In this document: positions 7,560 through 33,694 of the stretch, in pieces | Numbering within the stretch: the stretch's first letter is position 1 | Layout of the letters: the number at the start of each line of letters is the position of its first letter | IMG/VR virus record: IMGVR_UViG_3300033150_000980 | Location: 1 to 36,361 of that record | DNA length: 36,361 nt | From: a virus | Strand: one strand, 5' to 3' | The notes under the pieces: generated by a model | What the model was told of the DNA's origin: nothing | Databases searched by the model: none | What the model saw: only the letters and a program-made list of their open reading frames with translations | Translations under genes and position numbers: made by a program

Positions 7560-7589
7560 CGAAGGTGAGTAATAAACTGCCCACCTTCG
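7560..7589 (+). terminator. Hairpin after capsid gene, terminator-like
   Basis: CGAAGGTG (7560-7567) pairs with CACCTTCG (7582-7589) over 8 bp, followed by TTTTAT. It lies 11 nt after the capsid stop. Its right arm contains the left arm of the palindrome at 7585-7607, so the two hairpins cannot form together. Confidence 0.6.
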
Positions 7590-7607
7590 TTTTATAAATA
7601 AACAAAG
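7585..7607 (+). repeat. 23-nt RBS-associated palindrome, copy 3
   Basis: Arms CTTCGTTT and AAACAAAG flank TATAAAT. It differs from copy 2 by one base. The right arm plus the next two bases (AAAGGA) is the only ribosome site for the ATG at 7615. Confidence 0.85.
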
Positions 7608-7614
7608 GATTCAT

Positions 7615-8343
7615 ATGAATCTACTTCAACTCCGTCAGCAATTCAGAACAATCTCAGGTCGTAACGACCTCGTAAATGAAGATGGTTCTGACAATGGTGC
7701 TAATTTTTACATCAATGCAGGACAACGTCATCTAGATCGTTTAGATACTAATCAGAAATCTTATGGAATTTGCTATAGATTCTGCAATATAGGTTTTCAT
7801 GCAGTAACATTTCCATACTGCCGTGCGGTTAAAGAGGTCTGGGCATCTACAACTACTGCTCGATGGCAGCTTGAGAAGAAGAATCTTGCGGACTTAATTG
7901 CAGGATACCTTACAAAACTACCTTCATCTATAGACAAAGGGAATCCTCTTTACTATGCACCTACAATAACTCGTGCTGTACCAGAAACCTTCAACTCTGA
8001 ATCAAGTGATTTTGAAGCTTACTCCGGCTATGTAGATGTAATAAGTGCAAATCACTTTGCTTACAATTGTGTTTTAATAGCACCTCCTGTTAAAGAAAAA
8101 ATCCTTATTGAAACCAAAGGACTCTTTTACACAGATGAACTCATAAATGATGATGATAAAAGTTATTGGTCTGAAGTGCATCCTGACATCTTGATAATGG
8201 CAACTATGCGGCATATTGAGATTATCAATAGAAACACTCAAGGTGTAAATGATTGGAATGCTTCAATAAAAACTGAGGTTACTAACATTGGTAAAGATCT
8301 TGTCGAAGAAGAAATTGCAGAAGTTACTCAAATAGAGGATTAA
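7615..8343 (+). CDS. Putative head-tail adaptor / virion protein
   Basis: 242 residues. The N-terminus (QLRQQFRTISGRNDLVNEDGSDNGANFYINAGQRHLDRL, approximately) has the helix-loop-helix pattern seen at the start of several small phage connector or adaptor proteins encoded just after the capsid gene. The rest is mixed alpha/beta with an acidic C-terminal helix. There is no enzymatic motif. The start is fixed by AAAGGA and the palindrome upstream. Position after the capsid gene and before small tail-type genes supports a connector role, which is inference. Confidence 0.6.
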   Translation: MNLLQLRQQFRTISGRNDLVNEDGSDNGANFYINAGQRHLDRLDTNQKSYGICYRFCNIGFHAVTFPYCRAVKEVWASTTTARWQLEKKNLADLIAGYLTKLPSSIDKGNPLYYAPTITRAVPETFNSESSDFEAYSGYVDVISANHFAYNCVLIAPPVKEKILIETKGLFYTDELINDDDKSYWSEVHPDILIMATMRHIEIINRNTQGVNDWNASIKTEVTNIGKDLVEEEIAEVTQIED

Positions 8344-13290: not shown

Positions 13291-15206
13291 TGGATTTTGA
13301 AAGTATATTAGATAGAGATTCTAAATTTGAACATCTCTTAGGTGAGGTTAGTCCTAAGGATAGTCCTTTTGAAAAAGTCTTAGGTGAGATTGAATCTATA
13401 CATAAGGATCCTTTTGCCGATCTTAAACCTGCACCTAAGATTTCTCTTCAGTCTAAGAAATATCCTCAATCTTTCTTAGGCAGGCAAATGAAAGGAATGG
13501 AGGCATCTTTAGGATTATCTGAAGAGGAATATGATACCCTTGAAACTGAGATGATCTCGCAAGAGAATAAAGACTCATTCATGGAATCTATTGGTGAGGT
13601 AGCAACTCTTGCTGGTCAACCTTATGATGTTGCTAAAGGTGCAGGTAGTTTCATAATGGCTGGAATTCCTACTTTCTTAATTGGCATAGGTGGAGCCGTT
13701 AGTGAGATGAATAAGGAACTTCCTCAATTCATAGCTGGATATTCTAATCTTCTAGACATGGCTGATGCTGCAGAGAGAGGGTTTACCAAAGTTGGTAAGT
13801 ATATGCAGCCTGGAAAAGAAAAGGTTGAGGATTTTCTAGAGTTTCCTAGAGAAACATTTAAAGGTGCTTTTGGTGAACCTTTGTCTGAATTGCTTCTTGG
13901 TCGTCCTGAAGATGTAGATCCTGATTTAGCTGGTGAAATAGCAATGGTTCCTATGACTGTTGCTGAAGCTCCTTTCAAAGCAGCTTCTGAAAGTGAGAAA
14001 ATAAAAACAGTTGCTAAGGTAGCTAAAAAACTTTGGTTAGACAAAGTATTTGTTACTGAAGATAATATTAGAGGTGCACTTAAATTTGCTGGATTCTTTG
14101 CAGGGCTTGCTGCTTTACATAAGGTTTACAGGGGCAAACCTGGCGTTGTTAAGGATGTTCCTAAGAGAAGTGTAATTAAAGATGTTAAGGAAGTTGCTGA
14201 CAAAGCTGAGAAAATTGCTGAGACAGAAATATTGATTGAGAAGACTCCTAATGAAGCAATTAAATCTGCTCAAGAAAAAATTCTTAAGATGGAAAAGATT
14301 CAACTTGAACTTGAAGCGAAGAAAATTGCTGAAGATTTAAAGAAAGAAGCTGATGTAGAAAGTGTTGTGAAGAAAGATCTTAAGAAGAAAGGGAAGAAAG
14401 TTGAAGAGGTTAAGAGTGATCTGAGGACTGCTGAGGAAAGACAGGCTAAAATTGAGAAGGTTTTTAAAGAGGAAGTTAAAAAGGCACCTGAGAAGAAAGT
14501 TGAACCTTCTAAACCTTCCCCTAAGACTGAGCCAAAGATGAGTAAAGATATTAAAATTATCTATGACGAAGTTATATCTGAGCTCCCTGACTATATCAAG
14601 AAAGATATAGATGTTGAATCTATTCGTACAGCTATTTTTCCTGCTGAGCATCAAGGAGAAGGTGGAAAGACTAAAATAACTGGAAAACTTAAAGACCCTG
14701 AAAAGTATCATATTATATTAGAGAAGGGAGAAGAAAATATAAAGAAAACTTTAAAGCATGAACTATTACATACTTATGTTTTAAAGCATCGTGAGCTAGT
14801 AAAAAAAGAACATGGAATGTTTGGAGATGAAAAAGCTGTTGAGTTGTTGGAGAAAGAACTTACTCCAGAACCTATCACCCCTTTAGATCGTCAAACAGGA
14901 GTCTCAATTCCTGAGTTTGAAGGTGAGAAGAGTCCCTTCTTTCAAAATAAAGAAGAAACAACTGCATTTAAGAAGGTTTATGAAGAGAGGAAGAAGTCAG
15001 TTTCTGAAGATGTGGAGATTGCTACTCAAAAGCTAATCAATGATGTGAATAGATGGTATCATGGAGATGAGACAGTTGACATTGTTAAGGTTAGGAATAG
15101 TCTAAGGAATCTTGCATCAAGTGGTGATGAGTTAAGGATGGAATTTCTTACAGGTACAGATCATCTTAATTGGTTAGATACTGTTGGAAGCTTCTACTTG
15201 GGCTAG
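13290..15206 (+). CDS. Giant polyvalent virion protein, N-terminal part with zincin motif
   Basis: 638 residues in this frame. The N-terminus has short acidic repeats (HLLGEVSPKDSPF, KVLGEIESIHKDPF); residues about 110-160 and 260-275 are hydrophobic and small-residue-rich and may contact membrane; residues 290-420 form a long Lys/Glu coiled coil. H490-E-L-L-H494 is a zinc metallopeptidase signature (HExxH) preceded by KKTLK, as in zincin domains of phage 'polyvalent' proteins that enter the cell with DNA. The frame ends without a domain boundary, and the following frame continues the protein, so this is the first third of a protein of roughly 1,800 residues. Confidence 0.72.
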   Translation: MDFESILDRDSKFEHLLGEVSPKDSPFEKVLGEIESIHKDPFADLKPAPKISLQSKKYPQSFLGRQMKGMEASLGLSEEEYDTLETEMISQENKDSFMESIGEVATLAGQPYDVAKGAGSFIMAGIPTFLIGIGGAVSEMNKELPQFIAGYSNLLDMADAAERGFTKVGKYMQPGKEKVEDFLEFPRETFKGAFGEPLSELLLGRPEDVDPDLAGEIAMVPMTVAEAPFKAASESEKIKTVAKVAKKLWLDKVFVTEDNIRGALKFAGFFAGLAALHKVYRGKPGVVKDVPKRSVIKDVKEVADKAEKIAETEILIEKTPNEAIKSAQEKILKMEKIQLELEAKKIAEDLKKEADVESVVKKDLKKKGKKVEEVKSDLRTAEERQAKIEKVFKEEVKKAPEKKVEPSKPSPKTEPKMSKDIKIIYDEVISELPDYIKKDIDVESIRTAIFPAEHQGEGGKTKITGKLKDPEKYHIILEKGEENIKKTLKHELLHTYVLKHRELVKKEHGMFGDEKAVELLEKELTPEPITPLDRQTGVSIPEFEGEKSPFFQNKEETTAFKKVYEERKKSVSEDVEIATQKLINDVNRWYHGDETVDIVKVRNSLRNLASSGDELRMEFLTGTDHLNWLDTVGSFYLG

Positions 15207-16380
15207 TAGGATTGGAGCAAAATCATCAATAGGTTATCATGGAACTAGTACAAAGTTTCTACCTGGAATTGAGCAAAGAGGATTAAGACCCATCAGTTTA
15301 AAACAGATAGTTGAAAATGTTTTAGATGAATTAAATTTAAAAGGAAAAGAAAGAGAAGAAGTTAGAAAGACTATAGAAAGTTATGACTACTTTGAATATT
15401 CTATTAAAGAGGGAGAAGGAGCTAGACCATATGACAAACCTGATTTATATATAGCTAAGGATATTGAGTCTGCTAGAGGATATGCAGAATGGGCTGGAGA
15501 AGCTTATGATAATGCTTTGATAGCTGCTGGCGCATTTGATAAACCTGGTGGTAAATTTAATCGTGCAGTTTCAAAAGACATAGCTAAAAAAGTTAAATCT
15601 TTGTATGAAAAGAATAGAGCAGCAGAACCAGTTGTTCTTGAAGTTGAGGTTCCTGGAGGATTAAAAAAGGGAGATAATATATATAGAGACCAACTTAAAT
15701 ATAAAGTTGTTGAACCACTTCGTTTAATAAAAAAACGAAGGGAAGGTATAGAACTATTTACAGGAATTGATCCTACACAAGTAAAGAAATTAATTAAATC
15801 TATCAAACCTAAGTGGGATAGGGATAGTCAATCATGGAAATTTGATGTTAGAGGGATGCTACAGGAAATATATAAAGATCCAGAATCTGGATGGTGGATG
15901 GATGCACAAAGATTAACACCAGGTACTAATAGACCTCTGTACTTAGGAGATACAAAGATAGAGGCGATAAAGAAATCTACTGAATTAGCGATTGAAAGTA
16001 TTAGGGATTTACCAGGTGTTCAACTTTACTCCGGTCTCCCTCTTGACAAAGCATCTAAATTAATAATTGAAGGTGCTAAGCGGGCAAAAGAATACATGGA
16101 TGATGCTAGACATGCAAAAAGAATTAGACCCTTCAGGGCTGCAAAGATTGGTTATGAAGCAGCTATTCGTGAACTTGTTGATAAATCTGGAAATATCAAG
16201 TGGGATTTTATTGATAAGTTGGGTCTTAAAGGTTATGAAATAGTCCAAAAATTAGTCCTCACTAAAGGTGCTAACACCATTGCTGCTAATAAATTAAAAC
16301 AGATGCAGAGAGAAGTCTATGGAGGTCTCTCTCGTAATGAAAAGAATGTGTTAGACAATCTAATAGTGGTAAGCAATTAA
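15184..16380 (+). CDS. Giant polyvalent virion protein, ADP-ribosyltransferase-like part
   Basis: The +1 frame continues the protein for 398 residues. There is no ribosome site before the nominal TTG at 15184, so it is best read as the middle of the same protein. IGYHGTSTKFLPGIEQRGL (about 16-34) is the Y-H-G-T-S start typical of ADP-ribosyltransferase-like folds, and DLYIAKDIESARGYAEWAG (about 86-104) fits the second conserved block. Such domains in phage polyvalent proteins are thought to modify host targets after injection. The frame closes at 16380, but coding continues in the original frame from about 16365 (SGKQLTPSDAISY). Confidence 0.68.
   Translation: MEASTWASRIGAKSSIGYHGTSTKFLPGIEQRGLRPISLKQIVENVLDELNLKGKEREEVRKTIESYDYFEYSIKEGEGARPYDKPDLYIAKDIESARGYAEWAGEAYDNALIAAGAFDKPGGKFNRAVSKDIAKKVKSLYEKNRAAEPVVLEVEVPGGLKKGDNIYRDQLKYKVVEPLRLIKKRREGIELFTGIDPTQVKKLIKSIKPKWDRDSQSWKFDVRGMLQEIYKDPESGWWMDAQRLTPGTNRPLYLGDTKIEAIKKSTELAIESIRDLPGVQLYSGLPLDKASKLIIEGAKRAKEYMDDARHAKRIRPFRAAKIGYEAAIRELVDKSGNIKWDFIDKLGLKGYEIVQKLVLTKGANTIAANKLKQMQREVYGGLSRNEKNVLDNLIVVSN
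15718..15740 (+). repeat. 23-nt palindrome, copy 5, inside a coding region
   Basis: Arms CTTCGTTT and AAACGAAG, perfectly complementary, flank AATAAAA. Unlike most copies it lies inside an open frame (coding LRLIKKRR) with no start codon after it. Confidence 0.7.
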
Positions 16381-20181: not shown

Positions 20182-20393
20182 ATGGAAGAAGCTACTATTA
20201 TATTATGGTTTGTAGTAACTTTTTGTAACTTATTAAAGTACATTGTACCACTTGGACTATTTACAAGTTCATTATGTTCCTTCTCTGTTAGTATTAATAT
20301 ATCTGGTCTGGTGTCCTTATATACAATTCCCTTTAGACTAGTCCATAATTTACGGTGTTCAGCATATTTTTTGTTTATCCAAAGTAAGACCAT
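20178..20393 (-). CDS. Small protein between polymerase and helicase
   Basis: 71 residues. A perfect AGGAGG lies 6 nt before the ATG although the start is inside the polymerase gene (35-nt overlap), and its stop overlaps the helicase start, so translation of this gene probably feeds the helicase. Sequence is mixed alpha/beta (PDILILTEKEHNELVNS), with no motif I recognise. Its place suggests a replication role. Confidence 0.72.
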   Translation of the reverse strand: MVLLWINKKYAEHRKLWTSLKGIVYKDTRPDILILTEKEHNELVNSPSGTMYFNKLQKVTTNHNIIVASSI

Positions 20394-22884
20394 TATAAAC
20401 CTCCTTTAATTTATCCGCTAAAGTTTCAATATCATTAGGAATATTTTTACTTTTAAATTCCTTCATTAAATCCTTACACATGTTGAATCCTATACATAAG
20501 TCTGCAGGAACTTTTATTTTGGTACTTCTCCAATACATAGGAGTCTCCAGGCTATTTTTAATCCTAATCAATATTTCAGCATGCTGTTTCCAAGGAAGAG
20601 ATAAAGGTATTTGAAAAACCACTGAATCATGCACTTGGGTTAATAATTCTACAGGTTTAAACCACTGCTGATTATCATAGATAAATTCAATACCTTGTTC
20701 ATTAATCTTATCAGCAGTTGTTGATTGAGGAAGTTGTGCATAGCCTTCACGATATGTAGCTTCACATGAAGCTTTAGTAACTTTTGGAGGATTAGGAATG
20801 ATAGGTCCCATGAAGATTCTTTTGCGCCCAAAGAGGTTTGTAACAGTTCTATCTTTCTTAAGCATAGACTGAATCAATGCTTGATAACCTTGTCTGATTT
20901 GAGGATAAGCTTGGTGAAGTTTATCTAATATATATTTAGATTCTTTTTCAGTTATCTCATTTACAAGTGCAAACTTTTTATATCCTGTATCGTAATTAAC
21001 TGCGTGATTGCACTTTTTACCGAAGTACCTTTCAGAATGTGTTCCATCACCTAGAGAACATGTTCCATCTTCATCTGTTACTTCATTATAAGACTTTCCA
21101 AAGATCATTGAAGCAGTAAGTCGGTGCATGTCTTTACCGGATTCAAAAGCTTCAATCATAGGAATTATTCCTCCAACGTAGGCAACAATTCTATTCTCGA
21201 TCTGGCTAAGGTCGAAACTGTACCCGATATATCCTTCATCAAAAAGGAAAAATCGTAGGAGATCATGTGGCCAGTTTTGTTGATTACCTCCAGTTCCAAA
21301 GATAGTTTCACCTGATGATAGTCTTCCTGTTTCAGCTCCAACTGGTTTATACGAACTACGATACCTTCCATCTTTATCTACCTTTCCTATGTTCAAATAA
21401 GTCGATTTACGTTTATTAGCATGTCTTAAGGCAAGGATAATTTTTGCTTCACTATGTCCTTTCCTTGCCAATCTTTTCATTGCATCTACATCACAAGTTG
21501 TAACCCACTGACCTTTAGAGTTTCGTTTTTTATAAGGTTTAAGACCAAGTGAATTATAGAAATATTCTTGAAGTTGATTCGGAGAGTTATAATTAAGTTC
21601 AAAGCCTACTTTTTTATTTAAAAGTTCTGCATTTTCCTCTATATAAATATCTATCTTTTTCTGCTCCTCCAACATCCCACTTACATCGACTTTAATTCCT
21701 CTCTCCATCATATAAAGTAAAGGTGGAATTAACTTCCTTTGGCGGTCATAAGTTTCAATATTCCCTTGACGTTTTAGATCTTCAATTTGCATAGGATGTG
21801 CAGCAGAGGTTGCAATAGCATCCATTCCATTATAAGTCCACCAGTTTTCCCAAGTTCCTCCACCAGCTGCCTTCATCCATTTCTTTCCATCTTCCTTATA
21901 ATAAGGTATATCAGTATGCATTGAGGTTACGAAGTCAAGACCTGCACGGAAATCTGGGAAAGAAATTTTCTGAGCAATCTGTGTGCAGTGTATTTCACCT
22001 AATGGCCGCATACCATATTTATGAAGAAGAAATTGACAATCGAAGATGAAATTAGCACCCCTTTTGGAAATTCTTTCTTCCTGCATAATTGCAGTAATTA
22101 ACAGCATTATTTCATATTCTTGTTCAACATTAAAGTAATCACCTTGAGAACAGCGAAAAGGGACACAAAAAGCATTGTTAGGATTAGTTGCAAAAGCAAT
22201 ACAGTCAAGTTCTTCATTAATAACTTCAATATCAATATCGAGAGTTGTACCTCTAAGGCCTTGTTCATAAGCATTCTTTAACAATGCTACAGATTCATTA
22301 TAAGATGGTTTAATCTTTACATTCCTCTCTTCACGTCTAAGTTCATGAAATTGAGATTCATGTTTAGCTCTTTTTAAATCAAAGCAGATTAAGGGTTTAT
22401 TCATGAAGTTGAACTTTGGTGGGATGAAAGTTGCAGGATGGAAGGTAGGTACTATCTTTAATCCAGGGATAAGGGTTGATTCTAATATAGACCCTCTCCA
22501 TTTAGTTATTCCCACACGGTTTGTTAGAGCAATTAAGGGTATATTGCCATAAGCTACAACAACATTTAGATTTGGAAGTGCTTCTAATTCCCTCTTTAGT
22601 TCATTAATATAGGTCCATCCATCTTCAGAGATAGTATACTTTCCATAGGAACCTATGTTTATATAATGAGAGATTGGGGCATCTAAATCTTTAATTACAT
22701 TTGTTAGATAGCATTCTCGTCTAATAAGTCCAGCTATTTGCATACAGGAATCTTGACCTTTTCCGGCAGGGCCTACAAATGGAGTTGGAGGATTCCATCT
22801 TATTTCTTGAACTCCTGGTTGCTCACCACATATAGCAAGAGTTGCATCTTTAGGACCTCTAGGTGGGACGTAGGTGTGTTTCAT
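20359..22884 (-). CDS. DNA polymerase I-type with N-terminal uracil-DNA-glycosylase domain
   Basis: 841 residues in three parts. Residues 1-185: family 4/5 uracil-DNA glycosylase, with GEQPG (20-24), the FVGPAGK loop (36-42) and HPAT (149-152). Residues about 210-370: 3'-5' exonuclease with D216/D218/E220, D282 (NFIFDCQF) and D355 (YNGMDA). Residues about 385-810: family A polymerase with motif A FDLSQIENR (D558), motif B K623/K624 to Y631 (KKCNHAVNYDTGYKKF) and motif C VHDSVVF (H752, D753). All catalytic residues appear intact. It is the replicative polymerase of this phage; the glycosylase part may check template uracil. A glycosylase-polymerase fusion is known in SPO1. The start shares ATGA with the preceding small gene. 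Confidence 0.93.
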   Translation of the reverse strand: MKHTYVPPRGPKDATLAICGEQPGVQEIRWNPPTPFVGPAGKGQDSCMQIAGLIRRECYLTNVIKDLDAPISHYINIGSYGKYTISEDGWTYINELKRELEALPNLNVVVAYGNIPLIALTNRVGITKWRGSILESTLIPGLKIVPTFHPATFIPPKFNFMNKPLICFDLKRAKHESQFHELRREERNVKIKPSYNESVALLKNAYEQGLRGTTLDIDIEVINEELDCIAFATNPNNAFCVPFRCSQGDYFNVEQEYEIMLLITAIMQEERISKRGANFIFDCQFLLHKYGMRPLGEIHCTQIAQKISFPDFRAGLDFVTSMHTDIPYYKEDGKKWMKAAGGGTWENWWTYNGMDAIATSAAHPMQIEDLKRQGNIETYDRQRKLIPPLLYMMERGIKVDVSGMLEEQKKIDIYIEENAELLNKKVGFELNYNSPNQLQEYFYNSLGLKPYKKRNSKGQWVTTCDVDAMKRLARKGHSEAKIILALRHANKRKSTYLNIGKVDKDGRYRSSYKPVGAETGRLSSGETIFGTGGNQQNWPHDLLRFFLFDEGYIGYSFDLSQIENRIVAYVGGIIPMIEAFESGKDMHRLTASMIFGKSYNEVTDEDGTCSLGDGTHSERYFGKKCNHAVNYDTGYKKFALVNEITEKESKYILDKLHQAYPQIRQGYQALIQSMLKKDRTVTNLFGRKRIFMGPIIPNPPKVTKASCEATYREGYAQLPQSTTADKINEQGIEFIYDNQQWFKPVELLTQVHDSVVFQIPLSLPWKQHAEILIRIKNSLETPMYWRSTKIKVPADLCIGFNMCKDLMKEFKSKNIPNDIETLADKLKEVYNGLTLDKQKIC

Positions 22885-24412: not shown

Positions 24413-24910
24413 TTACCTCATAATTTGCCGTTTAAATACTGTTATATTTCCATACAATACATTATAGATGACACTTCTAGACACACTGAAGAGTTCAGCT
24501 AACTGTGTTTGACTAAGGTTCTTATATTTACGTAAGACCTTTACCATTTCAGCTTCATTTGAAGTAAGTCTTGAATGAAAACATCCCACTGTAGGATTCT
24601 TAGACCTCTTGATATAATCCTTCATATTATCTGAATTAGTCCCTAAGTACAAATGTGCTGGATTGATACATCTTTTATTATCACATCTATGAAGCACTAA
24701 TTTTCCTTCTGGAATTATTCCATAGTATATCTCCCATGAAATTCTATGTGCTCGACATCTTTTACCTAAACACCAGAAATCCCCATATCCATGATCTGAA
24801 ATTGTTCCATCCCAGTTCCAACACTCACCAGCTTGCATACTATCTACTTTGTCAAAGAACCGATGTTTAACTGACTGACTATGTATGCCATTCATAGTTA
24901 TAAATTCCAT
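24413..24910 (-). CDS. HNH endonuclease with C-terminal helix-turn-helix (copy A)
   Basis: 165 residues. ECWNW (near 30), AHRISWEIYYG (near 55) and VLHRCDNKRCINPAHLYLGT (about 72-91) form an HNH_3-type nuclease with a Cys-rich zinc site. Residues about 113-155 (LSQTQLAELFSVSRSVIYNVL) are a helix-turn-helix for DNA binding. Such free-standing homing endonucleases spread by cutting relatives at or near the insertion site. AAGGA precedes the ATG. It sits exactly between the gene for a 71-aa protein and the methyltransferase, with 1-3 nt gaps. Copy B is at 32393-32869. Confidence 0.88.
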   Translation of the reverse strand: MEFITMNGIHSQSVKHRFFDKVDSMQAGECWNWDGTISDHGYGDFWCLGKRCRAHRISWEIYYGIIPEGKLVLHRCDNKRCINPAHLYLGTNSDNMKDYIKRSKNPTVGCFHSRLTSNEAEMVKVLRKYKNLSQTQLAELFSVSRSVIYNVLYGNITVFKRQIMR

Positions 24911-25223: not shown

Positions 25224-25445
25224 TTATTCTCCTCTATATGTTATCTGCGAAAGCACTTCTTTTTCATTATCTGTAAGGTCTTTTGAAACACTAGCTAATT
25301 GAACACCCACTTGATAAGATGTCCCCCAAGATTTACATTCCTTTACAAAATGTTTAAAGAATGCTATTTGAGAAGTTTCATCCTCATTTGCTAATAGTGC
25401 TCCAACATACTTCCAGTCTATTTCCTTCATAATTCCAAATTTCAT
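25224..25445 (-). CDS. Small protein of unknown function
   Basis: 73 residues starting in an ATGA overlap with the previous gene; an in-frame ATG at residue 6 is an alternative start. Helical, with KEIDWKYVGALLANEDETSQ and a SYQVGVQLASVSKDL segment. No membrane span or catalytic motif. The arrangement of tiny coupled genes here is typical of phage early regions. Confidence 0.65.
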   Translation of the reverse strand: MKFGIMKEIDWKYVGALLANEDETSQIAFFKHFVKECKSWGTSYQVGVQLASVSKDLTDNEKEVLSQITYRGE

Positions 25446-25684
25446 CTTTTAACTCTCCTTTCTGCATTCTTCAAAATAGGCATGATTTCTTTAGACTTTA
25501 CCTTTTTAGACATAATAACTCCTGCGATTATTTGACCATGCTCTTCGAGGAGGTCAAGAAGATCATCTAAGATAGGCTGGAATAGAGCTTTTCTCATACC
25601 ATGAGTTGAAATTAGTCTATCACAACGAGACTGTTGTGAATCAGTTATGTCAAATGAAAATCTTGGTCTGTATTCTGATGGCAT
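25442..25684 (-). CDS. Ribbon-helix-helix-like small protein
   Basis: 80 residues from the ATG at 25684. A longer frame begins at 25699, but its first codons contain the GGAGG that sits 8 nt before 25684, so the later start is the real one. RPRFSFDITDSQQSRCDRLI followed by two helices resembles ribbon-helix-helix DNA-binding proteins (a strand then helix A and helix B). It could be a regulator; the fold is inferred from pattern only. Confidence 0.65.
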   Translation of the reverse strand: MPSEYRPRFSFDITDSQQSRCDRLISTHGMRKALFQPILDDLLDLLEEHGQIIAGVIMSKKVKSKEIMPILKNAERRVKR

Positions 25685-25689
25685 CTTAA

Positions 25690-26880
25690 TTACCTCCAAT
25701 TAACAGTTGGCATTATCACATCCTTAATTATTCTATCTTTATAAGGAAGAATATCTCTTATAAGATTCCTTATGAATTCATAAGTATTTCTTGAAGATTT
25801 GTAACCTAGATCAAATAGTTTCTGATGTGCTGGATTGTAGTAATGTTCTTCCTTTTCCTTACGAGGATTTTTAATGTGGGAAATACCTACATTTAAATCA
25901 AGTTCTTTTGCTGCCCTTGCTACATTGTATGCAAGTTCATTGATTGTATAGGTGTTTTCAAATTGATTAAGAGTTCTATATTCACCAATTTCAGGTGGAT
26001 TCTCGAGAGCAATAGTCATACATTGAATGCTATCTTTTAAAGGAAGATAACCTCTTATTTGATTACCTTCTCCATATACTGTCAGAGGATGTTCGATGAT
26101 AGCTTGAGTACAGAAACGGTTGATGACAGTACCAAAACATTCATCGTAGTCAAAGCGAGTTAGTTCAGTCTCTTTTTCATCACCTGTAACTTTAACTCCG
26201 AATACAGGACCTTGCATAATGTCAGTTGAACAAAGGTTCCAGTTTTTACAAGCGAAGATGATGTTGTTAGTATCATGGACTTTAGAAAGGTGATAGAAGG
26301 AACCTGGAGATTTAGGGAAAGGTAGTCCCTTCATTGGACACTCATATTGAAATCCATCTGCAGCAGGTTCTTTATAACTATCCAAACAATATCTGGGAAT
26401 CCTTCCCTCAGGTATATCACAATTAGGTGTGCCATACTCCCCCATAGTTCCTAGTTTTAACAAATGTGCTTTGGGACAGACTTCTTTCATTGCCCAGAGG
26501 AGATTTAAAGTGCCTATTACATTCTCCCACTGGGTTATTACTGAGTGTCGAGCATCTATCATACTCCAAGGTGCAGAAGGCTGTTCAGCAAGATGAACAA
26601 TTGCATCTGGTTTAATCTCGGATAGGAATGTAGTTATATAATTAGGATATTCATGTAGACCGAATTCAGCCCTTTCTTTGATATAGTTTGGAAAATTCCT
26701 AAGAATCATCCTTCTATCTATAGGGCCTTGGATAGGTGTAAGTGAATTACTTCCACAATCCTTCACCCTTTCTCTTCTTATATAAGAATCGAGACAAGCT
26801 ACTTCATGACCCTTTTTTAATAAGTGGAGTGTCAAAGGCCAACCAAGATAGCCGTCTGCACCCAGTATTAATATTCTCAT
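25690..26880 (-). CDS. UDP-sulfoquinovose synthase-like NAD-dependent enzyme
   Basis: 396 residues, short-chain dehydrogenase/epimerase fold. G7-A-D-G10-Y-L-G13 binds NAD. The sequence matches the SQD1/SqdB type in many places: EQPSAPWSMID, KLGTMGEYGTPN with T145, SFYHLSKVHD with Y196 and K200, FGTVINRFCTQA, LTVYGEGNQIRGYL, NPRKEKEEHYYNP. SQD1 enzymes convert UDP-glucose and sulfite into UDP-sulfoquinovose, the head group of sulfolipid; in archaea a relative makes sulfo-sugar for surface glycans. All catalytic residues seem present. No glycosyltransferase was seen in the window. It lies among nucleotide-metabolism genes. A related sugar epimerase activity cannot be excluded. Confidence 0.85.
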   Translation of the reverse strand: MRILILGADGYLGWPLTLHLLKKGHEVACLDSYIRRERVKDCGSNSLTPIQGPIDRRMILRNFPNYIKERAEFGLHEYPNYITTFLSEIKPDAIVHLAEQPSAPWSMIDARHSVITQWENVIGTLNLLWAMKEVCPKAHLLKLGTMGEYGTPNCDIPEGRIPRYCLDSYKEPAADGFQYECPMKGLPFPKSPGSFYHLSKVHDTNNIIFACKNWNLCSTDIMQGPVFGVKVTGDEKETELTRFDYDECFGTVINRFCTQAIIEHPLTVYGEGNQIRGYLPLKDSIQCMTIALENPPEIGEYRTLNQFENTYTINELAYNVARAAKELDLNVGISHIKNPRKEKEEHYYNPAHQKLFDLGYKSSRNTYEFIRNLIRDILPYKDRIIKDVIMPTVNWR

Positions 26881-26883
26881 ATT

Positions 26884-27054
26884 TCAAATCTCCTTAATAG
26901 ATACATTTAATTTATTGTTAATACTTTCAGCAGTAGGTATATAATTACTCCATCCTATAGGAGCATTATCATTGAACCACTCTGACATAATCCAAGCCAT
27001 AAGATATATAGGATTTTGTTCTATTTCTTCTATTATATAAGTTGGATCTTTCAT
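26884..27054 (-). CDS. Small protein of unknown function
   Basis: 56 residues, acidic and aromatic (YLMAWIMSEWFNDNAPIGWS). GGAGG lies 8 nt before the ATG, and the start forms an ATGA overlap with the deaminase stop. The leader sequence (GGAG, TTTGAAATATGA) is nearly repeated in front of the next gene. No motif recognised. Confidence 0.65.
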   Translation of the reverse strand: MKDPTYIIEEIEQNPIYLMAWIMSEWFNDNAPIGWSNYIPTAESINNKLNVSIKEI

Positions 27055-27578
27055 ATTTCAAACCTCCTTAACTTAATATCGCAGTGTTCATAAATAAATT
27101 CAGAATACTTATCATAATAAGTTATATCCTCAACAATTATCTCTCTTATCCCTGCATTGATTAGTAAAGTGATACAATTCTTACATGGTAAGACACAGTT
27201 CATATAGAGTCTAGTATCCTTTGTAGATATTCCAAGACGTGCTGCAGATGCTATACAGTTTCGTTCGGCATGTTCCGCATGACAAAGATGAAGACCCTCT
27301 CCTGATTTATAATCTAAGAGATGACGGGGGCAAGTTGTTGCAATGAGAAGTACTGATTCAGGAAGTATATCCTTCATTGCCCATCGAAGGGTTTCATCCT
27401 TTTCAAACCTATCCTTACCACAATGGGGGATTCCTCTTGCAGGACCGTTGAATCCAGTTGCAACAACTATTTTATCTTTCACTAAGATTGCTCCTATCTT
27501 ACGTGATAAACATGGAGATTTAGATGCAACTGATTCACAGATTTTATGAAAGTAAGTGTCCCACTTTTGATTGTTCAT
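27051..27578 (-). CDS. dCMP deaminase-like enzyme
   Basis: 175 residues from the ATG at 27578, chosen over an upstream frame start because GGGAG lies 9 nt before it and the previous stop is 1 nt away. CHAEHAERNCIA gives the zinc ligand His and the proton-shuttling Glu (H-A-E), and PCKNC gives the two Cys ligands, as in deoxycytidylate deaminases. The product, dUMP, feeds thymidylate synthesis, so it adjusts nucleotide pools for phage DNA. The neighbouring 103-residue protein may act on nucleotides too. A thymidylate synthase is not seen in this window. Confidence 0.88.
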   Translation of the reverse strand: MNNQKWDTYFHKICESVASKSPCLSRKIGAILVKDKIVVATGFNGPARGIPHCGKDRFEKDETLRWAMKDILPESVLLIATTCPRHLLDYKSGEGLHLCHAEHAERNCIASAARLGISTKDTRLYMNCVLPCKNCITLLINAGIREIIVEDITYYDKYSEFIYEHCDIKLRRFEI

Positions 27579-27579
27579 T

Positions 27580-27891
27580 TTATTCAACTCCCATCTCCCT
27601 AATAAGGGCATCTAAAAGGTAGGTGTAATTACGAAGGTCTGTTATTTTTTCATTCCACTTTCTTAAATTATACTGTCTTGGATCTTTAACCATATCAAGA
27701 ATGGAAGTAATATGTTTAACAGCCATTCCCATAAGAGCTTCTGCCGGTGAGATATCTTGCATAACACCAGCTTTGTGAAACTGGATTAAACGATCTTGAT
27801 TATCGGAGTATTCTATAGCTTTTTTGATTAAGAGTTTCTTACTTCGATTGTGAGAGTTTTCTACTTCAATTAAAAATTCCTCGTTAGTCAT
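27580..27891 (-). CDS. MazG/Nmad1-like small helical protein
   Basis: 103 residues from the ATG at 27891 (AAAGGAGA upstream; an earlier in-frame ATG overlaps the palindrome). All-helical, with EYSDNQDRLIQFHKAG, SPAEALMGMAVKHITSILDMV and KITDLRNYTYLLDAL, a pattern shared by small phage proteins related to all-alpha nucleotide pyrophosphatases (DUF1599/Nmad1-like). The E-x-D/K-H/D-x-x-N residues that could bind metal are present. It adjoins dCMP deaminase, supporting a nucleotide role. The family is recalled from pattern and is tentative. Confidence 0.6.
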   Translation of the reverse strand: MTNEEFLIEVENSHNRSKKLLIKKAIEYSDNQDRLIQFHKAGVMQDISPAEALMGMAVKHITSILDMVKDPRQYNLRKWNEKITDLRNYTYLLDALIREMGVE

Positions 27892-27901
27892 TGCTTTTCT
27901 C

Positions 27902-27924
27902 CTTTGTTTTATTATAATACGAAG
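27902..27924 (-). repeat. 23-nt RBS-associated palindrome, copy 8
   Basis: On the minus strand CTTCGTAT, TATAATA, AAACAAAG, followed at once by GAGA and the ATG at 27891. Confidence 0.78.
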
Positions 27925-27929
27925 TGTCA

Positions 27930-28208
27930 TTAATTATCAGTAACAGGTTGTTCATAACGTTCGTATTCTTTATGTTTCTTCTGTCTTATCATCTCTGTAA
28001 CTGCTTTTAATCGAGCTAATTGTAGTGGAGTTAATAATTGCTCCATTGCAGGAATATAATCATTGAATTCTTCTAGCTGAAATAGTTTATTTTGAAGATG
28101 GTTACATTCAAATCTACAATCATCAAGTTGTTTTTCAGCTGATATCCAAGAAGATAGAATGAAGATAATCATGATGATTATAACTATTATCATTGATAAA
28201 GTTTTCAT
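27930..28208 (-). CDS. Membrane-anchored small protein
   Basis: 92 residues. Residues 4-22 (LSMIIVIIIMIIFILSSWI) form a membrane span followed by a soluble helical domain with three or more Glu/Gln-rich heptads (QNKLFQLEEF). This shape fits an inner-membrane spanin or other small phage membrane protein, but its place next to tRNA-like and nucleotide genes does not favour either. AGGAG lies 7 nt before the ATG. Confidence 0.65.
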   Translation of the reverse strand: MKTLSMIIVIIIMIIFILSSWISAEKQLDDCRFECNHLQNKLFQLEEFNDYIPAMEQLLTPLQLARLKAVTEMIRQKKHKEYERYEQPVTDN

Positions 28209-28466: not shown

Positions 28467-28895
28467 CTACCTCGGAACTATATACTTACGAATAGTATTC
28501 TGCTCTCCATAGGTATCATCTGTCTTTGTCCCAAGAATTGCCCAACCTTCAAGTCCAGGTAGATCATCTTCATAATCTATCGGACGTGCAAGATCAAGAT
28601 CGAAGGCTTTGGCAAATACCTTGATTGCATAAAGTGAACGTTTGTACTGCTTTTCAGTCATATTTCCCTTGTTAGGAATGTCGAAGAAGCCTGAAAATTC
28701 CTTTACCATAGGTGCATCAGCAATCTCGAAAAGTGGAGAGAAATATTTAAGGTCATTTCCAGTGTTTTTATCCACTCGTTCACCTTCTCTACATCCAATG
28801 ATGCGAAGTTTGTATTCTTCTCCAGCCTCAGCAACTGTAGGTTCTTCTGCACCTTCAATATCATCCATCTGTTCTGTTAAGTCTAGCATTGACAT
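28467..28895 (-). CDS. Single-strand DNA-binding-like protein (DUF669-like)
   Basis: 142 residues: acidic N-terminal tail (about 1-25), then an OB-fold-like core (EEYKLRIIGCREGERVDKNT, YFSPLFEIADAP, FFDIP) and a conserved type of end with LEGWAILGTKTDDTYGEQN. The pattern resembles phage DUF669-type proteins, which usually lie next to recombination ATPases and are thought to coat single-stranded DNA. Here the Sak4-like ATPase gene is immediately upstream in the operon. AGGAG lies 9 nt before the ATG; its leader contains a short tandem repeat and palindrome copy 9. Confidence 0.65.
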   Translation of the reverse strand: MSMLDLTEQMDDIEGAEEPTVAEAGEEYKLRIIGCREGERVDKNTGNDLKYFSPLFEIADAPMVKEFSGFFDIPNKGNMTEKQYKRSLYAIKVFAKAFDLDLARPIDYEDDLPGLEGWAILGTKTDDTYGEQNTIRKYIVPR

Positions 28896-29008: not shown

Positions 29009-29794
29009 TTACAACTTCTCTTTATCCTGATAAGGCATCCCTGCTTTCTTCAAAATATGCTTTATGTCGGTCTTTTCATAAGTATCAAGCAATCCATCTG
29101 CTGAGAGTCTTGAGCGTGCAAGAAAAGTGCCAGTTGACTTTGTTAAAAGTCGATACTCAATTCCACTTGATGTTTCCTTAGGTGAGGTTACATAGATCTC
29201 ATCAAACATGAGAGGAATAGTTACCATACCTTGACCTGTTGTCATAAAGCGGAAGACAGTTCCTTTATCAGGATCTTCAACGAGTTTAAGATGGCCTTCA
29301 AAGATGAAATCACAAGGTAGATTTAGCATCTTTGAAATGTAGTTACGAATCATTGTTTTCTGTGGTGTGTAATCTTTTGTAAATCGAGGAGCTTCTCCAA
29401 CAATGCCAGCTTTTGCGAGAATATAATTCATTATTGCATCACTCCAGGAAGTTCCTGAACTTAACCAATAAGTGCCGAAGTGGTTGAAGTAACCGGAGGA
29501 AAGACGATATTCAAATTCTTTCTTCCAACATTTAAATTCAGATGGCTTTAAAGGGTCTTCAATTTCCCATCTTGTATCAGCAACTATCTCTCCTTTGTTT
29601 ATCCACTTTCTCACACACTTAGTCCCACCTATATCAAAAGAGTCAATATGTACAGGTTTACGAGCGGTGTGAGACATGAAAGTTTTTCCTGAACCACTTT
29701 CTCCAACGAGAAGGAGGTTAAAGGTTTTCTGCTTCTCATCTTCTTCATAGTATTTTCTTATCTTAGCAATTTCTGTTTTAATATCTAAAGGCAT
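29009..29794 (-). CDS. Sak4-like / AAA_24 recombination ATPase
   Basis: 261 residues. G31-E-S-G-S-G-K-T38 is a Walker A motif following FNLLLV; PCDFIFEGH (about 160) is the likely Walker B-type strand. The compact RecA-like core without a C-terminal DNA-binding extension is typical of phage Sak4 annealing or strand-exchange proteins, which work with an SSB. Here the SSB-like gene follows and a Cas4/RecB-like nuclease precedes, giving a complete recombination/repair module. The ATG follows AAGGAG. Confidence 0.82.
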   Translation of the reverse strand: MPLDIKTEIAKIRKYYEEDEKQKTFNLLLVGESGSGKTFMSHTARKPVHIDSFDIGGTKCVRKWINKGEIVADTRWEIEDPLKPSEFKCWKKEFEYRLSSGYFNHFGTYWLSSGTSWSDAIMNYILAKAGIVGEAPRFTKDYTPQKTMIRNYISKMLNLPCDFIFEGHLKLVEDPDKGTVFRFMTTGQGMVTIPLMFDEIYVTSPKETSSGIEYRLLTKSTGTFLARSRLSADGLLDTYEKTDIKHILKKAGMPYQDKEKL

Positions 29795-29797
29795 TAG

Positions 29798-30778
29798 TTA
29801 CTCCTTCCATTCTAAATTCATCTTATTTGTAGTCTCTATCTCTGTAGGATTCCAAAACTCTTGACGAAATCCAATAGGTGGCTCAAAGCAATGATGTAAA
29901 GGATTACTCCATGTTAGGCAGTAATCATGGAAAGGGCATCCCCAGTAATTAGTACAGCTCTTAGGGTTCTGTCTAAAAGCCATCATTACTGCATCTTCTT
30001 CTTTACAATCGAAGAGTCTTTCCATATCATTATCGAGGTCATCCAGAAGATCTACAGTGTTCCATAACCAAACACTCATTGCCTTATTATTCTTCCAAGC
30101 AGGAACACGTTGGAATCCTATGTTATAACCAGCAGGACGGAGTTTACTTGCACGCTTAAGGAAATTAAATTCAGTTCCGCAGAATTCAACGCCCTTGATT
30201 AATCCTGCTTTCATTTCCTCAGGATACATACAGTAAAGGCAATGTGTGTAAGTACCATTTTGCATAGATAGATGAAACTGTTCTTCCCATTGCCTTGAGA
30301 AGCGTTTTGTAGTCTTGTGGTCCCAAGAGAAGATAAATCCTTTTTCTTTATTCCTTAAAACAGAGTCCATTCGGAAGTAAAGAACACGCTTCTCATCAAT
30401 AGGAACTGAACCAGAAATTTCAGTGTAGAGAAGTTCATTGTCGATTAGGTCTTCTCCATACTTTCCGGCAAAGTTAGCTATCGCAAGGAGAACAGCGTCA
30501 GGAGTTTTTGGGAGGTAGAGTTCATCTGTGTCTTCAGAATATTCCTTACGATAATAACTTAAGAATGCATCGTAAGCACCTTGTATATTTTCATAGCCAT
30601 TAATTAGCATGTATTCACGAGCAATATGCCAAGATTGGCCGAAGTAGAGGTCATGTGTAGGTGTATCAATGCGCCAGCCTAAGATATGTTTGAAGAAATA
30701 AAGGCGTGGGCAAGAAAGATAATCATCTAATTTCGATGAGTCTCTAATGTTCCAGGTAGTGTGTGGTTGAATTAGCAT
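29798..30778 (-). CDS. Cas4/RecB-like PD-(D/E)XK nuclease with probable Fe-S cluster
   Basis: 326 residues. YLSCPRLYFF with C23, H51 (GQSWHIARE), D138 (FRMDSVL), D153 and K155 (SWDHKTT) and the Q-x-Y helix near 173-182 form a RecB-family nuclease. C275, C281 and C287 (SCTNYWGCPFHDYC) with C23 give the four-Cys iron-sulfur pattern of Cas4/AddB. It probably resects DNA ends for the Sak4-like ATPase next door. No CRISPR array is present in the window, so a CRISPR role is not implied. It overlaps the end of the portal-like peptide gene. Confidence 0.87.
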   Translation of the reverse strand: MLIQPHTTWNIRDSSKLDDYLSCPRLYFFKHILGWRIDTPTHDLYFGQSWHIAREYMLINGYENIQGAYDAFLSYYRKEYSEDTDELYLPKTPDAVLLAIANFAGKYGEDLIDNELLYTEISGSVPIDEKRVLYFRMDSVLRNKEKGFIFSWDHKTTKRFSRQWEEQFHLSMQNGTYTHCLYCMYPEEMKAGLIKGVEFCGTEFNFLKRASKLRPAGYNIGFQRVPAWKNNKAMSVWLWNTVDLLDDLDNDMERLFDCKEEDAVMMAFRQNPKSCTNYWGCPFHDYCLTWSNPLHHCFEPPIGFRQEFWNPTEIETTNKMNLEWKE

Positions 30779-32392: not shown

Positions 32393-32869
32393 TTAGATTA
32401 CCTCCATAAAATTTGTAGTCTTTCCATTAACAATATGGCTTATTGTAGCTTGATTACATCTAAACATCTTAGATATTTGTTTTTGAGTGAATTTTTTAGA
32501 TCTATATAATCTTTTCATCAACCAAGCTTCACCTTCATAGAAATTACTTGTTTTTATATTTTTACCAGAGCATTTTGAATTTCTGAGAACTGCATCACGT
32601 CTGTTATCAGACTGTGTCCCTAAATACAAATGATTAGGATTAACACATCTTTTGTTATCACATTTATGAAGAACTAATTTACCTTCAGGAATAGGCCCAA
32701 AGTGGATTTCCCAAGATATTCTATGGGCAGAAACTATTCCACAGAATCCATCACATATCTGTCCATATCCATGACCATTTTGAGAAGCTAACCAATTCCA
32801 ACACTCGTTGTTAGAACCTTTATCTACCTTCTCCCAGAATCTATTATCTAATGACATTTTCTTAGGCAT
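32393..32869 (-). CDS. HNH endonuclease with C-terminal helix-turn-helix (copy B)
   Basis: 158 residues, a clear relative of copy A (shared AHRISWEI, IPEGKLVLH, CDNKRC, HLYLGT, SDN). HNH residues are in VLHKCDNKRCVNPNHL; residues about 112-150 (FTQKQISKMFRCNQATISHIV) are the helix-turn-helix. GGAGG lies 9 nt before the ATG. It sits exactly between the ligase C-terminal part and the broken HIRAN gene, whose start codon abuts its stop and whose ribosome site lies within its last codons. It is probably a mobile homing endonuclease. Confidence 0.88.
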   Translation of the reverse strand: MPKKMSLDNRFWEKVDKGSNNECWNWLASQNGHGYGQICDGFCGIVSAHRISWEIHFGPIPEGKLVLHKCDNKRCVNPNHLYLGTQSDNRRDAVLRNSKCSGKNIKTSNFYEGEAWLMKRLYRSKKFTQKQISKMFRCNQATISHIVNGKTTNFMEVI

Positions 32870-32870
32870 T

Positions 32871-33356
32871 TTATAGCCCTCCTTTTATATCTAAAAATAT
32901 AGGAAATCTTGGTACTTTATTCTTAGCTGTTAAATGTTGATATTTAACCTTTACCATTTTACCTATAATAGAATCTTTTTGTGTCCATAGATTATATCTA
33001 TTATCATCAGTCATACCACTACCTACTGAGAATTGATTGCCCTCTTCATCCTCACAGACTAAAGCTCCCATTCTTTCTTTAGGAAAGCCTTCGATAGATA
33101 CTTCTTCTTTATATCCAACTACTTTATATTCATCCTCTTTTTTTCCTTTGAATTTCATTATGTAGGTACTTCTTTTTCGTATATATGGAGCTTCTAAATG
33201 TCTTACTATAATACCCTCGTAGCCCTTATCTATCATCAGATTATAGACCCTCATGATATCTTCAAGGTTTTCACAGATGTAAAAGGGTGCTCTTGTAATA
33301 GGAAATAGATCAGCCTTCTCAGGAACCATTTTGGTTAGATTAGATATCCTTTTCAT
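32871..33356 (-). CDS. ATP-dependent DNA ligase, C-terminal part
   Basis: 161 residues. Y46-E-G-I-I-V-R52 is ligase motif IV, M67-K-F-K70 motif V, and KVPRFPIFLDIKGG near the end corresponds to the motif VI region of the OB domain. It starts in an ATGA overlap with the N-terminal part, which could allow coupled synthesis of a two-piece ligase. The frame is open upstream of this ATG (ADKDQQMKRISNL), which suggests that the two parts were once one gene. Motif IIIa is missing between the parts. Confidence 0.8.
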   Translation of the reverse strand: MKRISNLTKMVPEKADLFPITRAPFYICENLEDIMRVYNLMIDKGYEGIIVRHLEAPYIRKRSTYIMKFKGKKEDEYKVVGYKEEVSIEGFPKERMGALVCEDEEGNQFSVGSGMTDDNRYNLWTQKDSIIGKMVKVKYQHLTAKNKVPRFPIFLDIKGGL

Positions 33357-33694
33357 CTGTTGATCCTTATCTGCTTGTGATCTGGATGGAGGTTTACTGT
33401 TCTTGAAACAATAGAGTGAATTTGTTCAAAGCTCATTCCATGACAGTAGAGTTCTCCATCCAGTTCATCTTTAATACCTAACTTTGACATAGCTTCAGTT
33501 ATGTGAGGTACTGAGAAAAAAGGATTTTCTTGAGAAGATAACAGTATATATCTAGGAGGTTCATTATTCATAGATATATCAACTGCACGACATCTTTCAC
33601 CGTCATACTTTGGTTGAACTATGTACGGAGGTTTCCACTTTGATAATCTCTTTTCCTCAAGAGGATAGCACAACATGATACCATGTCTACTCAT
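33353..33694 (-). CDS. ATP-dependent DNA ligase, N-terminal part
   Basis: 113 residues. K29-Y-D31-G32-E-R34 is the adenylation motif I with the nucleophile Lys; DELDGELYCHG is motif III. It ends after SIVSRTVNLHPDHKQIRINR, just before the place where motif IIIa (aromatic-x-x-F-D-I) should be. AGGAGG lies 6 nt before the ATG. With the next gene it accounts for nearly all of a small phage ligase, but activity is doubtful without motif IIIa and with the break. Its role would be nick sealing after replication. Confidence 0.82.
   Translation of the reverse strand: MSRHGIMLCYPLEEKRLSKWKPPYIVQPKYDGERCRAVDISMNNEPPRYILLSSQENPFFSVPHITEAMSKLGIKDELDGELYCHGMSFEQIHSIVSRTVNLHPDHKQIRINR

Follow-up and report, generated by a model that had tools for sequence, protein, structure and literature searches.

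What is a gene for a UDP-sulfoquinovose synthase (USS) homologue doing in a phage? The question was raised by one open reading frame in a 36,361-nucleotide stretch of viral DNA (IMG/VR record IMGVR_UViG_3300033150_000980), hereafter the window. The original prediction had recognized a USS-family homologue in a phage, considered it unusual cargo and proposed three uses for it: sulfolipid for the host membrane, a sulfo-sugar for surface or virion glycans, or DNA modification. Genes for a portal protein, a major head protein, a primase and PolA in the window confirmed that the DNA belongs to a phage, and a large terminase (named by sequence and position) was located on the overlapping contig G001. 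The USS-like protein had no match in 50,697 GenBank phage records (E 1e-5). One viral USS, from 2020, is already in print. Among the matches listed in a literature search for UDP-sulfoquinovose synthase and viruses, judged by titles and abstracts, only this report (PMC7785012) concerned a virus gene. It describes a putative USS in a Mu-like virus from the Cariaco Basin, which its authors discuss under glycosylation (Mara et al., 2020, PMC7785012). That protein is known here by its description rather than its sequence, and in the account of it we found neither a clade nor a partner transferase nor an analysis of residues. We found no paper that counts sqdB among the auxiliary metabolic genes, and no earlier report of the clade, cargo slot or glycosyltransferase partner described below in the literature outside subscription papers and preprints.

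Family, fold and active site of the window protein

The open reading frame (25690..26880, minus strand) is real and intact, with an ATG start, no internal stops and 396 codons for amino acids. Contig G001, which comes from another sample and is 99.9% identical to the window, encodes the same USS-like protein (100% identity). The protein matched the NCBIfam family NF041015 (UDP-sulfoquinovose synthase) over its full length with 480 bits, compared with 38 bits for the runner-up family. A PDB search returned Arabidopsis SQD1 (1qrr/1i24/1i2b) with 352-355 bits over residues 2-396, while the next match scored 43 bits; in an alignment the window protein is 46% identical to SQD1. An AlphaFold model built from 67 aligned rows (pLDDT 94.0, pTM 0.93) superposed on SQD1 with a TM of 0.92-0.93 and an rmsd of 2.1-2.2, whereas GalE, RmlB and other sugar enzymes in a list of 50 structures reached a query-normalised TM of 0.60-0.70. 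The model was thus nearer to SQD1 than to any listed epimerase or dehydratase. These comparisons place the predicted protein on the USS branch rather than among the ordinary epimerases, the affiliation that would have spoken against the original prediction; the placement rests on scores and fold because our quick USS tree had no epimerase outgroup. The gene is under purifying selection, with dN/dS values of 0.175 against L003 and 0.141 against L021.

A scan of IMG/VR with a three-row alignment as the query found 94 contigs encoding relatives, of which the best 80 were analyzed together with the best 80 of at least 588 GTDB matches (top identity 52%). There were also 30 matching plasmid records, with a top identity of 41% among the matches listed. 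A quick tree of 162 rows placed the window protein inside an all-viral set of 44 rows (clade A, SH-aLRT 99). A second all-viral set comprised 15 rows (clade B, SH-aLRT 98), and the remaining viral rows were dispersed among cellular ones. Because the window protein sits in an all-viral clade of this tree, the gene is an old phage gene and not one recently taken from a host.

The nucleotide-binding motif GxxGxxG described for SQD1 (PMC4388408) was present as G7, G10 and G13 and was kept in 44/44 clade A rows. The USS active-site signature [ST]MG...YxxxK (PMC8987622, Table 1) was represented by T145, M146 and G147 with Y196 and K200, in agreement with the NAD motif, T145, Y196 and K200 originally read from the sequence, and every other point of that observation that was checked also held; T145, Y196, K200 and the TMGEYGTP block are shared with SQD1. 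Comparison with the published positions of Agl3, a USS from Sulfolobus acidocaldarius, showed that H95, M145, E147, Y148, S180, Y182 and K186 correspond to H96, M146, E148, Y149, S194, Y196 and K200 of the window protein. All Agl3/SQD1 signature positions checked were therefore kept except two: T185 of Agl3 is replaced by Ser199, and Arg101, also an arginine in SQD1, by Pro101. The second change matters, as alanine mutants of His95, Arg101, Met145, Tyr182 and Lys186 of Agl3 are reported as inactive (PMC4388408). A further difference was the loop G159-S194, with 34 residues in the window protein against 20 in those 78 cellular rows of the Pro or Arg type that were counted.

Pro101 is not peculiar to the window. 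It was found in 79/81 viral rows (clade A 44/44, clade B 13/15, other viral 22/22), and arginine occupied the position in SQD1 and, on the viral side, in the two rows L067 and L068. Among the cellular rows (best 80 of at least 588), 55/80 had proline, 23/80 arginine and 2 alanine. The state of this position changed at least five times on the USS tree. The NF041015 model is blind to the distinction. Its curated cut-off is 575 bits, above the score of the window protein, and 15 non-archaeal Arg101-type (SQD1-like) cellular rows also fell below it (469-498 bits), while three Thermoplasmata rows with arginine (626 bits) and four rows with proline (576-595 bits) lay above it. Since SQD1-like rows fail as well, the cut-off is not diagnostic, and the missed cut-off was dropped as an argument against function. 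We label the protein USS-like, and not a proven USS, because Arg101, a catalytic feature of the characterized enzymes, is replaced in it.

Could the Pro101 subfamily make another sugar, as a UDP-glucose 5,6-dehydratase or other C6-modifying enzyme that adds no sulfite? The inactive R101A mutant of Agl3 and the release of UDP-glucose-5,6-ene by Agl3 when sulfite is left out (PMC4388408, PMC8987622) point that way, as does the prevalence of proline in the rows above; our search of the USS literature found no characterized Pro101-type enzyme. On the other hand, the change from arginine to proline spans a whole subfamily instead of being the loss of a single copy, the protein retains most of the conserved blocks, TMGEYG and YH..K among them, and archaeal Pro101-type rows pass the NF041015 cut-off (588-595 bits). 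We regard a different product as unlikely, though it is the main rival to the reading given below, while noting that the coupling to a glycosyltransferase described below would stand in either case. Judged from its sequence, the window protein, one of the USS-like enzymes of a Pro101 subfamily, probably works like a USS.

The cargo slot and its phage lineage

The USS-like gene lies in a conserved module whose gene order is common to the clade A contigs. The features of the window are as follows.

20359..22884, minus strand: DNA polymerase of family A that carries a uracil-DNA-glycosylase (UDG) domain at its N terminus; marker for the phage tree
23087..24409, minus strand: fusion of a ParB N-terminal domain and an N4/N6 DNA methylase, a conserved feature of the lineage
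25442..25699, minus strand: conserved 85-aa ORF directly downstream of the USS-like gene; borders the cargo slot on the right and occurs whether or not USS is there
25690..26880, minus strand: USS-like protein (Pro101 type), 396 aa, assigned by NCBIfam, PDB and model
26887-27054: 56-aa ORF between the dCMP deaminase and USS-like genes
27051..27611, minus strand: dCMP deaminase; borders the cargo slot on the left
27580..27930, minus strand: phrog_6802 protein of the conserved module
28467..28895, minus strand: conserved 142-aa ORF of the module
29009..29794, minus strand: AAA_24 ATPase of the module
29798..30778, minus strand: PD-(D/E)XK nuclease of the module

Among 32 dereplicated clade A loci, some of them short, the 142-aa ORF was found in 30, the AAA_24 ATPase in 29, the 85-aa ORF in 28, the PD-(D/E)XK nuclease in 26, the ParB-methylase fusion in 25, the dCMP deaminase in 22 and the UDG-polymerase nearby in 21. 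The longest clade A contigs measured 43-52 kb, and at least one of them, G005, looks like a complete permuted genome, judging by a gene split across both contig ends. The nearest named phage was Desulfofustis phage LS06-2018-MD01 (OP947158; polymerase 46% and portal 44% identity), which has the same replication module order as annotated and gave no USS match. Its host was predicted as Desulfofustis from CRISPR spacers (PMC10370329), and sulfur bacteria may by extension be the hosts of the whole lineage. PAPS reductase was detected in 0/23 clade A contigs and in 2/50 contigs overall, and was rejected as a phage source of sulfite. Any sulfite must consequently be derived from the host, and sulfur-bacterial hosts would explain its source.

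To sample the lineage free of any bias from a USS search, we scanned IMG/VR with the polymerase and obtained 56 loci, 55 of which were examined (L254, with 23% identity, was left out). USS was present at the slot in 26 loci, both flanks were there with no USS between them in 24, and the slot was cut or uninformative in 5. No USS was found elsewhere on the 24 USS-less contigs nor on 4/5 of the cut ones. In the USS-less phages the deaminase gene often runs straight into the 85-aa ORF, as in L209, where the former spans 7561-8190 and the latter follows at 8190. On the polymerase tree, the presence or absence of USS changed at least 10 times, and 6 of these changes were forced by well-supported branches. 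USS is thus an optional cargo at a fixed slot in the early replication operon. A role in DNA replication, suggested by this operon position, was rejected because half of the lineage cleanly lacks the gene.

Other features of the window were recorded along the way. The ATP-dependent DNA ligase at 32871-33694 (minus strand) is split into two overlapping ORFs (113 and 161 aa) and corresponds to a single 291-aa ORF in G005. About 70 bp are missing at 16362-16365 relative to the 99.9% identical G001. In relatives, a single ORF of 1,700-2,500 aa encodes a giant late protein that in the window is distributed over three ORFs. Three endonuclease genes, one LAGLIDADG and two HNH, are located at 5502-6182 (plus strand), 24413-24910 (minus strand) and 32393-32869 (minus strand).

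Coupling of the cargo to a GT2 glycosyltransferase

Glycosyltransferases of family GT2 (PF00535) were found in 18/23 clade A contigs over 20 kb. With the GT2 of G005 (13799-14794) as the query, an orthologue was present in 17/17 USS-bearing and 1/8 USS-less contigs of at least 42 kb (Fisher 1.7e-5). When 56 gene families were screened over 15 USS-bearing and 8 USS-less genomes, this GT2 (14/15 versus 1/8, p 2.5e-4, 0.014 after multiplication by 56) was the only associated family besides USS itself, all others being at 0.07 or above. Among genomes whose contig includes both edges of the slot, GT2 occurred in 16/16 USS-bearing and 1/11 USS-less genomes (p 1.3e-6), counts that include a transferase in G010 (478 bits) and contigs whose slot wraps the ends; the automatic family count, which excludes both, gave 13/14 versus 1/10 (p 7.2e-5). 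Descent was accounted for with a model of dependent evolution of USS and GT2, which fitted better (LR 26.7, p 2.3e-5) on one tree, under a flat prior at the root and with rates that ran into their bounds. Well-supported branches provided 4 independent pairs, three or four in favor and none against, too few for significance (p 0.125-0.25). One exception was the USS-less L246/G101, which carries a 40% identical GT2. Taken together, the coupling of USS and GT2 is statistically shown.

In G005 the two genes are about 14 kb apart, with USS in the replication operon and GT2 by the tailspike, in a variable cassette of glycan genes that has the terminase on one side and a regulator-like ORF on the other. 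The window and G001 both end short of this slot, so that GT2 was not seen in the window's phage. The original prediction had looked to a glycosyltransferase elsewhere in the genome; a coupled one exists in the lineage, and the window's phage itself shows a partial PF11316 transferase that lies with a beta-helix protein beside the terminase of G001.

A DxH metal motif and a WGG motif are marks of polypeptide GalNAc-transferases (ppGalNAc-T). In the GT2, D97-S98-H99, W198-G199-G200 and H226 were invariant in 18 rows. The top 37 PDB fold matches of its structure model (pLDDT 87) were ppGalNAc-transferases with a query TM of 0.53-0.67, while a profile search of the PDB returned chondroitin synthase, TarP and TarS first, followed by ppGalNAc-transferases (E 1.5e-4 and weaker). 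The modelled GT2 therefore resembles ppGalNAc-transferases in catalytic fold and DxH/WGG motifs, and transfer to serine or threonine of a polypeptide is a prediction from this likeness.

The cassette neighbors of GT2 included an epimerase, methyltransferases and other transferases, and in relatives sulfotransferases (G020, 2.6e-5; G113, 7e-5) and an APS kinase (G113, 4e-20). The polymerases of G113 and of the USS-bearing L004 are separated by zero distance. The APS kinase gene of G113 (L344:6892-8304, minus strand) adjoins sulfotransferase-like genes in the glycan cassette. We also noted a single protein that unites a B12-binding, a radical SAM and a GT2 domain in contig G010 (L184:4046-6061, plus strand), and long GT2 proteins (700-940 aa) in the USS-less G097, G098 and G110. 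Relatives of the coupled GT2 near cellular USS genes were also considered and rejected: its profile gave 7 matches in the first 161 loci, and only two were strong, both in the viral locus L037.

Possible roles of the USS-like enzyme

Family, fold, signature residues, cargo behavior and the statistical coupling to GT2 are the observed parts of a pathway for which we infer the substrate, the reaction product, the use of sulfite, the acceptor and the benefit. The NAD-dependent, Pro101-type enzyme would combine UDP-glucose and sulfite, both from the host, into UDP-sulfoquinovose, an activated 6-sulfonated glucose. The GT2 encoded elsewhere in the same phages would use this product as its donor. 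The acceptor would probably be a virion or host-surface protein or glycan, because the GT2 resembles polypeptide GalNAc-transferases in fold, and the benefit may be receptor masking, escape from defence, or adsorption. By analogy, Agl3, a USS for protein glycans, is likewise an NDP-sugar enzyme that feeds surface glycans. We find it fairly probable that the USS-like enzyme and the ppGalNAc-T-like GT2 attach an unusual and perhaps sulfonated sugar to an acceptor on the virion or the surface of the host. Several points count against this pathway: Pro101, the GT2 not seen in the window's phage, the exception L246/G101, the distance between the two genes, the lack of a PAPS reductase in clade A, the small number of independent pairs and, in cells, the many Chloroflexi Pro101-type genes that adjoin amino-acid biosynthesis genes and not glycan genes (read from the sequence rather than by Pfam).

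The original interpretation was supported in part; it had missed Pro101, the optional presence of the gene, its occurrence in many phages and the published viral USS. Of the three uses first proposed, the surface or virion glycan was best supported, by the GT2 coupling, the cassette and the neighbors of USS in clade B and in the inspected Pro101-type cellular loci given below. In DNA hypermodification, the sugar would be put on a modified base of the phage DNA, and the position of USS in a replication operon, beside a dCMP deaminase and a ParB-methylase fusion, would suit it. Yet the same operon lacks USS in 24 loci, thymidylate synthase/hydroxymethylase (PF00303) was found in 0/50 contigs, and the coupled GT2, located by the terminase and tailspike, is similar to protein transferases. 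With nothing positive gained from these searches, we consider this use improbable.

SQD1 and SqdB serve the synthesis of the sulfolipid SQDG, and a phage enzyme of their family might remodel the host membrane during infection. This use was less supported, as GT4-type transferases (PF00534) were found in 0/23 clade A contigs, which led us to reject a GT4 partner for USS. The window gene is phage cargo for which no SQD2-type partner was found, in contrast to SQD1. Among cellular genes, an SqdX-like GT4 was seen only beside three of the Arg101 type (L125, L142, L153). We inspected 14 Pro101-type cellular loci and ran Pfam on chosen neighbors, which were an epimerase, a GT2 and an APS kinase in L135, a NusG-like protein and a flippase in L096, a flippase in L106, a sulfotransferase in L101, a GT4-like protein in L104 and a GT2 in L107. 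These few neighbors are mostly glycan genes and not a sulfolipid transferase. Host sulfolipid remodelling is accordingly very improbable. A functionless captured gene on its way to being lost, which its optional presence might suggest, was refuted as far as sequence can do so by a dN/dS of 0.14-0.18, an old and diversified all-viral clade and the coupling to one GT2, and hardly deserves credence.

Within a few kb of USS, clade B carried NeuB-family and GT2-family genes in 7/10 dereplicated loci each, and Pfam confirmed one NeuB (L080:11024-11971) and one GT2-cytidylyltransferase fusion (L077:3445-4845). Such neighbors are as for a nonulosonic acid glycan.

Decoration of a surface acceptor thus remains our preferred reading. 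A bolder version, which we put forward tentatively, is that a widespread phage lineage, possibly on sulfur bacteria, uses a Pro101 synthase and a ppGalNAc-T-like GT2 to O-link a sulfonated sugar to virion or host-surface proteins. If true, this would be the first phage sulfonate glycan, adjoining sulfate-ester chemistry (APS kinase, sulfotransferases) in one cassette, and Pro101 would mark an uncharacterized subfamily that serves glycans, not sulfolipid, in cells and phages. Pro101-type USS-like enzymes are common in bacteria and archaea, and their product was absent from the literature found. Should such an enzyme make UDP-sulfoquinovose, the rule that Arg101 is essential would fall; should it not, a new sugar nucleotide awaits. 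Viral sulfur genes are mostly treated as metabolic helpers. Here, the putative sulfo-sugar gene would be an optional glycan cargo tied to one transferase, and the proposed two-enzyme pathway is concrete and testable in vitro.
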